Made by a program: the position numbers and the translations under genes. A DNA stretch of 23,812 nucleotides from a virus. The stretch is from positions 1 to 23,812 of the IMG/VR virus record IMGVR_UViG_3300030012_000846. One strand, written 5' to 3'. Each line of letters opens with the position of its first letter. Position 1 is the stretch's first letter. This document shows, one piece after another, positions 10,624 through 22,807 of the stretch. Under the pieces are notes generated by a model. That model searched no databases, was not told where the DNA came from, and saw nothing but the letters and a program-made list of their open reading frames with translations.

Positions 10624-10831
10624 AGTCCTTGCCCCTTGGTCTGGTGTTGACCCAGTCTTCGATCTCCGTCAAAACCCAACGGCTCGAGGATCTCTTGTTT
10701 GTTTCGTCCCCCAAGACGATAGGTTTTGGAAAGTCTCCGGTCTGCGATAGTTTGTATATGTAGGATTTCGATACGCCTAACATGTCGGCTACCTCACCCA
10801 CTCGCAGCAGTCGATTAGAATGGGATTTCAT
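10607..10831 (-). CDS. AlpA-family HTH DNA-binding protein
   Basis: This 74-aa protein carries a MerR-type winged helix: LLRVGEVADMLGVSKSYIYK (8-27), then TGDFPKPIVLG, then SRWVLTEIEDWVNTR. This is the layout of AlpA/excisionase-like regulators, which act as transcription activators or as recombination directionality factors. Start has GGAG about 8 nt upstream. It overlaps the primase upstream and the helicase downstream by 17 bp each, so it is made with the replication proteins. No integrase lies in this window, so an excisionase role cannot be tied to a partner. It may instead be a local regulator or an origin-binding accessory protein. Confidence 0.85.
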   Translation of the reverse strand: MKSHSNRLLRVGEVADMLGVSKSYIYKLSQTGDFPKPIVLGDETNKRSSSRWVLTEIEDWVNTRPRGKDYDTQS

Positions 10832-12350
10832 TGCTGTACTCCTTCACAGGTAATTCTACTTCTTCTTCTTCGAACGCAGGTACAAACCAACAGCGAACAG
10901 TTGTTCTTATCTCGCCCTTTGGCCCACGCTTATTTATATTTTGTTTTGTTGAGTCTCCCCCTAAGTCTCGTATCATCTGGGTTATCTGTCCCCGACTTGT
11001 AATGTTGAACCGTCTGTTGTGTAGAAACTCAAGTAAACCCTCGAGTTTAAACTTAGTTGTTCCTGCATCTGTCCAAGGTTTGTTCATCAGTATTTCTTCT
11101 GGTGCCATGGCTCGGATGTTGCTTGTGCAGTATGCTTCGAGCAGATCCTTGAACTGTCCGGCTATGGTTAGTTCCTCGGGCACATCTATGTATGTTGCCT
11201 GACTCATCAAACTGTTGACCATCTGCTGCCACTTCTGTGGCTTGGTAGTCGGAGGCATAAACATACACTGCTCCATACAGGCACGTTGCCAAAGCATTTG
11301 GTTCTGCAACTGCTCTGTCGAAAGCTGTATCCGTGTGCCGTTCACATCCATAAAGTACAAACGTGGTTCCGACAACATGATCGTTAGACCACCAACTTGT
11401 GGTGCATCCGGTGCATCTTGACCTATACCAAACTTAGCCAACACACACAGAGCCGGGTCGCAGTAACTCTTGAACGGTTCGTCCTTACATGTGTAGCCGT
11501 AGTCCTTCTTCTCATGCTGTTTGATTAGTGTTGCCACCTCCTGCGATTGCAGTGGCGGAGAGAACAAAGTTCGATTGTATTCTTCTACAGAGTTCTGCCA
11601 ACTGTCAGGAAACTTCTGTTTGCAGTACGCTGCTATCATAAAGAGAAGCTTGTTCCTTGGTTCTGACTGCGGTCCGTCTGCAAATATGTGACGCAAACAA
11701 GGAGGTCCGTCTTCGAAATGATTTCTCACAGCTTGTGTGGCTCGTATAGCTTCCAAGTCAGATAGGTTTACTCGCCTTTTGTCCACCGCATCCAGGAACT
11801 CATCCAGTTCCATTGCTTCAATCTTTTTGTTGTAGCAAAACCTTTGAGGTATCTCAGCATCGAAGTACGGCATGTTAATAAAGTTACCAACATCTCCGCG
11901 CTCGGCTATAATTTGATCCTGCTTTGGAAAGATCTCGCACCCACTGTGCCCCAATAGTATAGACATCTCTGTTAGATACTCACGGATAACAGCAGCAGGT
12001 TCCCAGTCTTTGAGAAACACATACAGATGTGCACCTCCCGATTTGGATCGGCAATGCAGTAAGGGCAGATCCAACTTGCGGATCTTTTCTTGTAATTCTT
12101 TGTGATTCAGATCGTAGACATCCACATCGATGGCTCCGAACTTACACATGTTATCTTCGTTGATCGGGATGGCCCCGACACCCTGCTTGCCGTCGATGTG
12201 CCCTTGCACAATCTCCTCAGTCAGCGGTTCTCGAACGATCCTGCTTTTACCTTCAGCCTTACCGTCACGTCCTACTCGACCAACGGTAGTCGTTCCATGT
12301 GCCGCTGCTGCACCAGTGTAGGCAGCAAGCAGTCTTTTCGCTTGTGACAT
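10815..12350 (-). CDS. Archaeo-eukaryotic-type primase (TOTE-like AEP)
   Basis: This 511-aa protein has the AEP metal site FGAIDVDVYD (D75, D77), then SKSGGAHLYVF (102-112, nucleotide-binding H108), EIFPKQ (139-144) and GNFINMPYF (155-163). This string is what I recall for the primase domain of TOTE conflict elements and related phage primases. Four cysteines follow: C218 in PPCLRH, then C288, C297 and C302 in YTCKDEPFKSYCDPALC, a layout like the Fe-S/Zn C-terminal module of primase large subunits. The region after 310 may be winged-helical. It likely makes primers for PolA. The C-terminus is EYSNEIPF, resembling the SSB tail. The start has CAGGAG upstream and follows a hairpin that may attenuate its expression. 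Confidence 0.85.
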   Translation of the reverse strand: MSQAKRLLAAYTGAAAAHGTTTVGRVGRDGKAEGKSRIVREPLTEEIVQGHIDGKQGVGAIPINEDNMCKFGAIDVDVYDLNHKELQEKIRKLDLPLLHCRSKSGGAHLYVFLKDWEPAAVIREYLTEMSILLGHSGCEIFPKQDQIIAERGDVGNFINMPYFDAEIPQRFCYNKKIEAMELDEFLDAVDKRRVNLSDLEAIRATQAVRNHFEDGPPCLRHIFADGPQSEPRNKLLFMIAAYCKQKFPDSWQNSVEEYNRTLFSPPLQSQEVATLIKQHEKKDYGYTCKDEPFKSYCDPALCVLAKFGIGQDAPDAPQVGGLTIMLSEPRLYFMDVNGTRIQLSTEQLQNQMLWQRACMEQCMFMPPTTKPQKWQQMVNSLMSQATYIDVPEELTIAGQFKDLLEAYCTSNIRAMAPEEILMNKPWTDAGTTKFKLEGLLEFLHNRRFNITSRGQITQMIRDLGGDSTKQNINKRGPKGEIRTTVRCWFVPAFEEEEVELPVKEYSNEIPF

Positions 12351-15860: not shown

Positions 15861-16124
15861 TTATTCCTCGTCGAAACATTTGATGCACCGCCAAGGTATA
15901 TCGTCTCGCTTGTCTGAATAGTTTGGTATGCAATGAGCCTCGACCTCGTCGCCCTCCTGCAAATTAATCCGAGCCACTAGCCGCTTGTTAAAGAATACAG
16001 CGTCACCTTCTTCGTTTACACCAAATGCACTACCGGAATATGTCTTTGCTTCTATCAACACCAACATCTTTTGCGTTTCGAAACTTCTCTTGGTCTCAAA
16101 ATTTTGGCTCGTAGATAATCCCAT
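15861..16124 (-). CDS. Small protein with cold-shock/OB-like domain
   Basis: This 87-aa protein has AAGGAG 10 nt before the ATG at 16124. The segment from about 34 to 75 (GSAFGVNEEGDAVFFNKRLV, then INLQEGDEVEAHCIPNYSD) has the beta pattern of small cold-shock/OB domains (glycine turn, VFF strand, L-x-E-G-D-x-V strand). It ends with DIPWRCIKCFDEE, whose two Cys are too few for a full zinc site. An RNA- or ssDNA-binding role is plausible. The fold is inferred from pattern only. Confidence 0.7.
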   Translation of the reverse strand: MGLSTSQNFETKRSFETQKMLVLIEAKTYSGSAFGVNEEGDAVFFNKRLVARINLQEGDEVEAHCIPNYSDKRDDIPWRCIKCFDEE

Positions 16125-16266
16125 TTTCTTCTTGCTCCTTGTAATAGTTGAGTTCTTGTAAGAGAACCTCGATCCTTGGATCTTCTTGGTTCTCCCACTG
16201 GATATCATCGATCTGTGTCTGCGTCCTCCTTATCAAATCGCTGATCAGATCTACGTTCTTCTTCAT
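16096..16266 (-). CDS. Tiny helical hypothetical protein, 56 aa
   Basis: The frame reads MKKNVDLISDLIRRTQTQID, then DIQWENQEDPRIEVLLQELN, ending IIYEPKF. GGAGAAGGA lies just upstream of the ATG. It is Gln/Glu-rich and probably one or two helices (coiled-coil-like). It overlaps the previous gene's end by 62 bp and the next gene's start by 29 bp. I do not recognise a family. The good ribosome site and the coupled layout support it as real. Confidence 0.6.
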   Translation of the reverse strand: MKKNVDLISDLIRRTQTQIDDIQWENQEDPRIEVLLQELNYYKEQEENGIIYEPKF

Positions 16267-17490: not shown

Positions 17491-17519
17491 AAATTAATTA
17501 CCGTGACTTGACATATCAA
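17491..17519 (-). promoter_or_regulatory. Candidate sigma70-type promoter for the leftward small-gene operon
   Basis: On the minus strand TTGATA (17519-17514) is followed after 17 bp by TAATTT (17496-17491). The -35 matches 5 of 6 consensus bases and the -10 is weak. It lies 20-50 bp upstream of the 165-aa gene, at the left edge of the pentamer array. Confidence 0.4.
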
Positions 17520-17522
17520 AGC

Positions 17523-18064
17523 CCATCCGAACACGACCAAACTTAACCGCCGTAATCCAACTTAACATAACTAAACTGAACCAAACGTAACTAAGCTGAA
17601 CCCAACTAAACAGATCCGCCGAAGCTCAACAGAACCCAACTCAACCCATCCCAACTTAACTCAACCGCCAAGACGTGACGAAACTCAACCAAACTCAACA
17701 CACCTCAACACACCTAAACCGCCCTACCTTAACCGAACGCAACTAAACAGAACCGAACTTGACATAACTCAACCGCCCTACCTTAACTCGACTCAACGCA
17801 ACAAACCGATACAGAACGCAACTCAACATAACCGCCAAAACTCTACAGAACTCAATCAAGACATAACTGGACATAACTTAACCGCCCAAACTCAACGCAA
17901 CTCAACTCAACAGAACGCACCCTAACGGAACCCGACGCAACCGCCTGAACAGAACTCAACAAGAACAAAACAGACCATGACCAAACTCAACGCAACCGCC
18001 TGAACACAACCGAACTCAACAAAACATAACGAAACTTAACTAAACTGAACCGCCGTACCTTAAC
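17523..18064 (-). repeat. Punctuated pentamer array: (NNAAC)k-CGCC, possible noncoding RNA
   Basis: This 540-bp gene-free stretch is built, on the plus strand, of about 100 pentamers of consensus NNAAC interrupted by ten CGCC tetramers, starting at 17548, 17617, 17666, 17720, 17774, 17833, 17883, 17942, 17997 and 18051. The intervals are 69, 49, 54, 54, 59, 50, 59, 55 and 54 bp; seven are exactly 5k+4 with k of 13, 9, 10, 10, 11, 11 and 10, and the other two carry one extra base. The NN positions vary freely (for example TG, AC, CG, TC, AA, AT, GA, TT, TA in consecutive units). Base composition is strongly biased: line 17881-17940 has A23, C25, G8, T4. There is no open frame. Neighbouring genes are leftward, so the RNA would read GGCG-(GUUNN)k. 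It could be a structured or protein-bound RNA, an origin or a DNA-binding array. Confidence 0.9.
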
Positions 18065-18074
18065 CCGTGGCACA

Positions 18075-18092
18075 GGGGCGGCGCACCGCCCC
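18075..18092. other. Perfect 7-bp GC hairpin at the head of the array
   Basis: GGGGCGG (18075-18081) pairs with CCGCCCC (18086-18092) around CGCA. In minus-strand RNA the loop is UGCG, a UNCG-type tetraloop. No T-tract follows on either strand, so it is not a standard terminator. It lies 25 bp past the stop of the 254-aa gene, and its CCGCC arm repeats the array's punctuation, so it may cap or process the RNA or compete for pairing with GGCG units. Confidence 0.75.
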
Positions 18093-22389: not shown

Positions 22390-22807
22390 AAAATGTTTTG
22401 CAACTAGGATTGAGAACAAACATGGCGGTGGTGTGCCTGATGTTCATATGGTCTGGGATGGGTTGCCGTTTTGGATGGAATTGAAAGTAGCAAAAAGCAA
22501 CAAGGTAAATATATCCCCACACCAAGTCGCTTGGAATATGGCCTACTACGCTCGAGGAGGGGCCAGTTTTTACTTAGTAAAGAGGGCCAAGGAGCGAGAC
22601 CTAATTTTATTTAGGGGTGATCAGGGAGCCGCTCTGTCGTCCTGCGGCCTGTCTTGCGCCCTTGGTTCTCGGTTCGAGGGCCTTGCGCCCTTGTTCTGCG
22701 CCCTGCGCCCTGTTCTTGAGGGGATCTTGCGCCCTGCGCCTTGCGCCTTGGCCCATGATAGCGACAGCCTGGACAAAAGAAAAGAGGGCCGAGGCCCTCC
22801 CCTTTAG
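22334..22807 (+). CDS. VRR-NUC (PD-(D/E)XK) nuclease with aberrant tail
   Basis: This 157-aa protein has GGAGG 9 nt before ATG. Residues 1-95 form a complete VRR-NUC domain: E27 in RIENKHGGG, D36 in GVPDVHMV, E49 and K51 in WMELKVA, Q64 in SPHQVAW, and a final strand DLILFRG. Phage VRR-NUC proteins are thought to cut branched or replicating DNA (resolvase-like). After residue 95 the frame runs into the TGCGCC repeats and through the leftward terminator, giving a Cys/Leu/Pro-rich tail of about 62 residues (for example GLAPLFCALRPVLEG). That tail is probably not part of the fold. It overlaps terS, suggesting a role at packaging or genome maturation. Confidence 0.85.
   Translation: MSKGPEANFWQSIRKNLPKKCFATRIENKHGGGVPDVHMVWDGLPFWMELKVAKSNKVNISPHQVAWNMAYYARGGASFYLVKRAKERDLILFRGDQGAALSSCGLSCALGSRFEGLAPLFCALRPVLEGILRPAPCALAHDSDSLDKRKEGRGPPL
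22654..22747. repeat. Degenerate TGCGCC heptamer repeats inside the nuclease tail
   Basis: TGCGCC occurs at 22655, 22684, 22697, 22704, 22728, 22735 and 22742; within two groups the spacing is exactly 7 bp (unit TGCGCCY). It is far richer in GC than the surroundings. The translation on either strand is low-complexity, which suggests an inserted or expanded repeat rather than conserved coding sequence. Confidence 0.85.
22775..22799 (-). terminator. Intrinsic terminator of the leftward right-end unit
   Basis: On the minus strand GAGGGCC (22799-22793) pairs with GGCCCTC (22790-22784) around a 2-nt gap (in practice a 6-bp stem with a tetraloop), followed by TTTTCTTTT. It lies 12 bp past the stop of the last leftward gene. 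It overlaps the 3' end of the nuclease frame. Confidence 0.85.

Follow-up and report, generated by a model that had tools for sequence, protein, structure and literature searches.

A punctuated pentamer array as the probable guide-RNA locus of a phage VIPR system

The stretch of viral DNA analysed here (IMG/VR record IMGVR_UViG_3300030012_000846, 23,812 nucleotides; hereafter the window) carries an intergenic region in which a five-base unit recurs about one hundred times and is interrupted at intervals by a tetramer. What function could such an array serve? An earlier note, made from the letters of the DNA, had offered a guide-like or scaffold RNA, a protein-coated array, an origin, and a partition or packaging site as candidate roles. 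From the evidence presented below, the array very probably encodes the guide RNAs of a VIPR system, by which the phage would repress genes of its competitors, and the interpretation given in the earlier note is, overall, partly supported.

Layout of the array

A two-unit segmentation model, fitted jointly to all arrays found, divides the region into 103 GKYNN pentamers and ten GGCG tetramers when the minus strand is read as sense (Table 1). An array of about 100 units had been placed at 17523-18064; it is indeed there, and the model extends it to 17498-18064. This length corresponds to about ten complete putative guides with 9-13 NN pairs each. The ten plus-strand CGCC tetramers, whose first bases are the left-hand coordinates of the separators in Table 1, are spaced 69, 49, 54, 54, 59, 50, 59, 55 and 54 bases apart. 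Seven of these nine spacings fit 5k+4 and the other two are one base longer, exactly as had been claimed.

Table 1. Coordinates of the array, its separators, two of its putative guides and the neighbouring features
Feature	Position in window	Strand	Basis or context
VIPR-type guide array (candidate vrRNA locus)	17498..18064	- (sense)	segmentation model and shuffles
GGCG separator, first in sense	18051..18054	-	CGCC scan, tetramer consensus
GGCG separators 2-5	17997-18000, 17942-17945, 17883-17886, 17833-17836	-	
GGCG separators 6-10	17774-17777, 17720-17723, 17666-17669, 17617-17620, 17548-17551	-	
Putative guide CA-TA-AA-TC-AT-TT-GA-CG-GT-CA	18001..18050	-	common to L017 and L046
Putative guide GA-AT-AA-CG-CT-TA-GC-CG-AA-AG	17724..17773	-	common to L011, L017 and L035
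GC-rich hairpin GGGGCGGTGCGCCGCCCC	18075..18092	-	between vipr stop and first guide
Vipr-like RAMP protein gene, 254 aa	18118..18882	-	directly upstream of array in sense
Putative accessory (vap-like) gene, 165 aa	16974..17471	-	directly downstream of array

The regularity of this region greatly exceeds that of 1000 dinucleotide shuffles of 17498-18064, as evident by the 48 AAC pairs at a distance of five bases (shuffle mean 3.5, maximum 10), the ten CGCC tetramers (mean 3.0) and the nine occurrences of AACCGCC (mean 0.2, maximum 3). The five-base AAC period is thus confirmed, and no comparable AAC/CGCC pattern was found elsewhere in the 23.8-kb window. The unit itself is looser than the NNAAC originally described, reading NN-[A/G]-[A/C]-C on the plus strand and G[T/G][T/C]NN in sense.

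The array RNA is not predicted to fold more stably than its shuffles (z=+1.4), an Rfam search returned no match, and no CRISPR-like repeat units were found within the array. Megablast of the window against cultured phages likewise gave no match. The hairpin that precedes the first guide is kept in close relatives and missing from CGAC-type loci; its role could lie in termination, processing or stability, and folding of the region around it is no better than that of shuffles. Low-complexity GC-rich repeats, TTGCGCCC, also occur at window positions 22640-22760, where they lie at the 3′ end of a 157-aa open reading frame. In phage 023Pt_psg01, similar GC-rich repeats (L057 15390-15470) are found close to the gene for the terminase small subunit.

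A RAMP gene and a family of arrays

Viral contigs were scanned twice by DNA pattern, blind to proteins, and of the 58 loci obtained 34 have real arrays. Together with the window and the freshwater phage DSL-LC04, these give 36 arrays and 2572 pentamers. The earlier note had proposed such a search of related phage contigs, reasoning that missing homologues, or homologues in which the AAC spacing is not conserved, would argue against function. Homologous arrays exist and keep the spacing strictly, so this test does not refute the note, which was also right that the five-base period itself is selected.

Over all 36 arrays the plus-strand pentamer consensus is NN-[A.81/G.15]-[A.69/C.24]-C.96, and the interrupting tetramer, seen in about 270 instances, is CG[C.75/A.24]C; in sense these read as G-K-Y-N-N pentamers and a G-K-C-G tetramer. 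Six-base units are rare under the segmentation model. The number of pentamers per module between tetramers peaks at 9-10, and most modules hold 8-13. The genomes of 84,980 bacterial and archaeal species contain no instance of the strict AAC/CGMC pattern, whose reach excludes GGY-type arrays.

The gene directly upstream of the array encodes a 254-aa protein, a homologue of which adjoins the array in all 34 loci with enough flanking sequence. A profile built from 24 family members matches a single PDB entry, the SUSP1 Vipr protein 36pp (E=4.4e-8), over a region that includes the G-loop GxGDxRxxxxxxFGxF, and hhalign of the family against SUSP1 Vipr taken from the phage genome gives 96.9%. The AlphaFold model of the protein (pLDDT 80) finds Csm3, Csm4, Cas7 and type VII RAMPs in the top rows of Foldseek and VIA, with VIA Z values up to 8.7. 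Pfam, PADLOC and NCBIfam do not recognise the protein. Judging from the profile and the model, the product is a single-RRM RAMP with a G-loop, as is characteristic of VIPR systems. Many enterobacterial phages also have Vipr homologues annotated as hypothetical proteins, which occur in 134 records, mostly of Felix O1-like phages (e.g. wV8).

On the other side of the array, the 165-aa gene has a homologue beside the array in 26 contigs. This family is distantly similar (hhalign 77%) to a small gene downstream of the array of the Gordonia phage Ecliptus. No homology was detectable to SUSP1 Vap1, the sole Vap family compared, Foldseek gave no match for the protein at E<=0.001, and neither PADLOC nor NCBIfam knows it. 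There are no cas genes beside the array, and its neighbours are not Cas proteins. Further genes of the phage (window positions 10815-12350 and 15861-16208) specify an archaeo-eukaryotic primase of the TOTE type and a small protein whose match to S1/CSD-TOTE is weak.

The sense orientation relative to the flanking genes is constant across loci, which show two gene orders: 254-ARRAY-165 (the window type, with GGCG) or 254-165-ARRAY (with GTCG or GGCG). The relevant RNA would be GGCG-(GUUNN)k on the leftward strand, as the earlier note had it, and this strand is also sense for the vipr and vap-like genes on either side. In HTVC023P, HTVC027P and 023Pt_psg01, which belong to the same DNA polymerase group, the 254-aa gene was not detected and the array is likewise absent. 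DSL-LC04 (L058 23068-23335) has guide-like chains upstream of a vipr-like gene that is annotated as a helix-turn-helix regulator.

According to a 2026 preprint (PMC13142463), a VIPR system has three parts: Vipr, which is a small RAMP; the accessory gene vap; and vrRNAs with 9-16 YNNGG repeats, in which the NN pairs with double-stranded DNA and one base, usually the codon wobble, is skipped. The system represses genes of competing phages and is reprogrammable. The main text of the preprint names seven types, whose triplet is GGY or ‘a related consensus’ and whose arrays vary, among them ‘staggered arrays with overlapping vrRNAs’. The Vipr profile match, the Csm3/Cas7-like fold and the adjoining gene therefore assign the element to VIPR systems. 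The statement that no described element has this design does not hold, because the vrRNAs, built from GGY/NN pentamers, are of this kind. The code is also that of SUSP1, since a detector for GKY/NN chains recovers the SUSP1 chains at the intergenic positions published for its vrRNAs; one lies upstream of vipr-vap, and two regions lie downstream.

The NN pairs and their targets

The NN dinucleotides had been considered nearly random, a view that misses the point because NN carries the information. In the interior of 133 non-redundant guides, NN correlates at r=0.854 with the first two codon positions in genes of these phages, compared with 0.26 or less for any other frame or strand, and a mixture fit places a weight of 0.68 (bootstrap 0.61-0.75) on sense codon positions 1-2. 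Single-base preference accounts for part of this correlation. The residual dinucleotide dependence correlates with codon positions 1-2 at r=0.54, a value equalled or exceeded in 74 of 2000 permutations (p about 0.04); it is less clear for their reverse complement (0.49, 25 of 500), and none of the remaining frames is followed.

NN is also retained between homologous modules. When modules from different contigs are compared, NN identity follows a bimodal distribution whose valley lies near 0.75-0.8. In homologous modules NN diverges about as fast as, or more slowly than, the two-fold K and Y positions, even though it has more alternatives. Choosing modules by NN biases this comparison, for which selections by N1 only and N2 only are fairer. 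Selection by all five positions was dropped because the constant triplets make unrelated modules look alike.

When read with a one-nucleotide skip, the guide GA-GA-TT-AT-GA-GC-TT-GG-TA, carried by six contigs, has matches in 90 viral contigs. Among 80 sites examined, 74 lie in one cluster of homologous terminase large subunits, where the guide reads the motif HDDFIDALGY in frame with the skipped base at the wobble position; a second terminase family is matched at this motif too. The guide TC-AT-CA-CT-AG-TA-GG-TG-AT, found with small changes in nine contigs, has matches in at least 120 contigs, and its target is the 5′ half of tRNA-Arg(UCU), in antisense. Since the matched contigs are redundant, these results represent two gene families, not hundreds of independent events. 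Three other guide patterns, among them one common to L004, L009, L011 and L031, gave no match at similar stringency. Local target searches in 1.1 and 3.1 Mb of contigs brought out only terminase and tRNA-Arg beyond chance. The tRNA-Arg(UCU) guide, present in the L005, L012, L013, L022 and L026 arrays, departs from the expected viral-protein target; it may be aimed at host or phage tRNA genes or at tRNA-integrated elements.

These clear targets come from sister arrays (the L005/L012/L013/L026 group), not from window guides. Through them, and through the codon-phased composition of all arrays, NN appears at the level of sequence to decode double-stranded DNA with a one-nucleotide skip, as in VIPR. 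The window guide at 18001-18050 has matches in nine contigs. Four of these (three distinct sequences) share one site at the stop-codon end of a scaffolding gene, with the wobble base skipped, and two others have an in-frame HYKSILDRET site that matches the L046 version of this guide at 20 of 20 positions. Cultured T7-like cyanophages match at only 12-15 of 20 positions of the scaffolding site. Both the stop-codon end of the T7-like scaffolding gene and, for the L046 version, the HYKSILDRET site are suggestive only as targets. For the guide at 17724-17773, searched as GANATNAANCGNYTNTANGCNCGNAANAG, no target was found: it has no viral match, and its shorter form has eight genome matches that are mostly unrelated and chance-like. 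The window guide TANGTNGANGTNGANTGNGANTCNAC has no match.

Periodic triplets are also bound by TRAP, which recognises about 11 of them separated by 2-3-nt spacers. A decoy or scaffold RNA could similarly wrap a ring or filament protein by means of GUU, with NN as mere spacers and titration or regulation as the outcome, and the 9-13 pentamers per module come close to the TRAP number. We consider this very unlikely because the adjoining protein is a RAMP homologous to Vipr, because NN is codon-phased and persists in homologous modules whose K and Y positions drift, and because decoded NN strings match a terminase motif and tRNA-Arg. Unlike TRAP-binding RNA of the trp leader, which shares the 2-nt spacers, the array has GKY triplets in place of (G/U)AG and a RAMP in place of TRAP, and its NN is informative.

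Even less credible is an element that acts as DNA, whether as an origin of replication, as a site for partition or packaging, or as a track for primase. GTT and GTC are known primase start sites, the phage has its own AEP primase, and the array is strand-asymmetric, intergenic and present once in the window. However, the array accompanies vipr into different phages and lies on either side of the vap-like gene, its triplet becomes GGY in GC-rich Gordonia phages, and pelagiphages of the same polymerase group are without it. The origin, partition or packaging site once suggested has gained no support. The earlier note also argued against neutral slippage of a pentamer, which can be dismissed almost entirely despite two weak tandem arrays reported within the array. 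Nearly every unit has a different NN, the phase is reset almost nowhere but at GKCG tetramers, and 36 arrays of diverged phages keep to one grammar. A T4/T7-like primase track, a Rho rut site, a TRAP-like ring and helical phasing of double-stranded DNA were candidates that we dropped.

A guide-RNA locus of a VIPR system, which is the guide-like option of the earlier note, is instead favored by the adjoining Vipr-like RAMP gene, the codon-phased NN and the decoded targets of sister arrays. By analogy with SUSP1, as reported in the main text of the preprint (PMC13142463), the array would be transcribed leftward, on the same strand as its flanking genes, processed at GGCG, and coated by the RAMP protein with one subunit per 5 nt. 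Each Vipr subunit would grip one G-K-Y triplet and leave NN exposed. The 9-13 NN pairs of one module would form one guide and read a double-stranded DNA target with one base skipped between pairs, usually the codon wobble. The GGCG tetramer, equivalent to a GKC triplet plus a single base, would mark the start of a guide and reset the register. The ribonucleoprotein, bound to its target, would block genes of competing phages.

A punctuated variant among known systems

The locus resembles the type II VIPR of Escherichia phage SUSP1 (PMC13142463, 36pp) in its Vipr, which has a RAMP fold and is homologous across the C-terminal portion that bears the glycine loop, in its two genes with an intergenic guide RNA in sense, and in the decoding, where one base is skipped at the codon wobble. 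As judged from the letters, the array also has the alternation of GGY or a related triplet with NN (here G-K-Y/NN pentamers), 9-16 per guide, that is expected of these guide RNAs. The triplet, however, is mostly GUU in the window family and mostly GGU in SUSP1. The Vipr of the window family is about 50 aa longer, with a helical C-terminus, and the accessory protein is not detectably Vap1. Guides lie head to tail, separated by the 4-nt GGCG, whereas those of SUSP1 are separate RNAs of about 100 nt. The constant structured 3′ tail of the SUSP1 clade guides is absent after every module in the window and its relatives, where only GGCG stands between modules.

Closer likeness is found in the Gordonia phages UmaThurman and Ecliptus, which have a Vipr homologue and tandem GKYNN modules with 4-nt punctuation; Ecliptus also shares the distantly similar small gene downstream of its array. 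Their sense arrays read GGCA-(GGYNN)8-10, repeated, with GGY for GUU and GGCA for GGCG, consistent with their high GC content. Therefore, one grammar, [GKC+purine][GKYNN]8-13, is common to marine and actinobacterial phages that differ greatly in GC. The UmaThurman (L092 4616-4935) and Ecliptus (L093 4625-4835) arrays lie beside unannotated vipr-like genes of cultured phages and are usable laboratory models. Pseudomonas phage LESphi2, a P. aeruginosa LES prophage, carries three GKY/NN guide chains (L091 3575-3879 and 3992-5064) upstream of gp9, which is vipr-like and unannotated, and of gp8, a small partner gene.

Class 1 CRISPR-Cas systems (Csm3/Cas7 with crRNA) offer a RAMP fold with a G-loop motif, periodically interrupted pairing and a filament on the guide RNA, the last of which is a prediction here. 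Unlike these systems, the array is without CRISPR repeats that carry unique spacers and without a cas operon beside it, and its period is 5 nt instead of 6 nt, with information in two of five bases.

Whole modules are common to related phages and differ in order and number. The L035 array approximates that of L011 minus a block of modules, and single window modules recur in L011, L035 and L017, in L017 and L046, in L032, and in L046. Because the kind is known and this array design is absent from the main text of PMC13142463, we call it a variant. Apparently beyond that text are GUU as the main triplet, the GKCR opening unit, the tandem arrays, which have no tails and hold up to about 13 guides, and the sharing of guides in differing order among phages. 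It is a tentative proposal that these loci form a separate VIPR subtype, in which one tail-less transcript holds about 5-13 guides that are mobile as cassettes between related phages, mostly sense and codon-phased, and in part directed at conserved targets such as the terminase nuclease motif and a tRNA-Arg gene. Under this proposal, a 4-nt GKC+purine unit opens every guide and resets the Vipr filament, and the punctuation would thus be written in the guide's own code.

Sequence by itself reproduces the gapped guide code reported for VIPR, and does so in phages beyond those that had been tested. With the GKCR punctuation rule, arrays can be split into guides and their targets become predictable. 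Related phages share and shuffle their guides, and for this reason the arrays may hold a record of the rivals that marine phages meet. The locus also raises a question that bears on CRISPR origins, namely by what means a transcript with several guides is divided when it has neither CRISPR repeats nor a tail.
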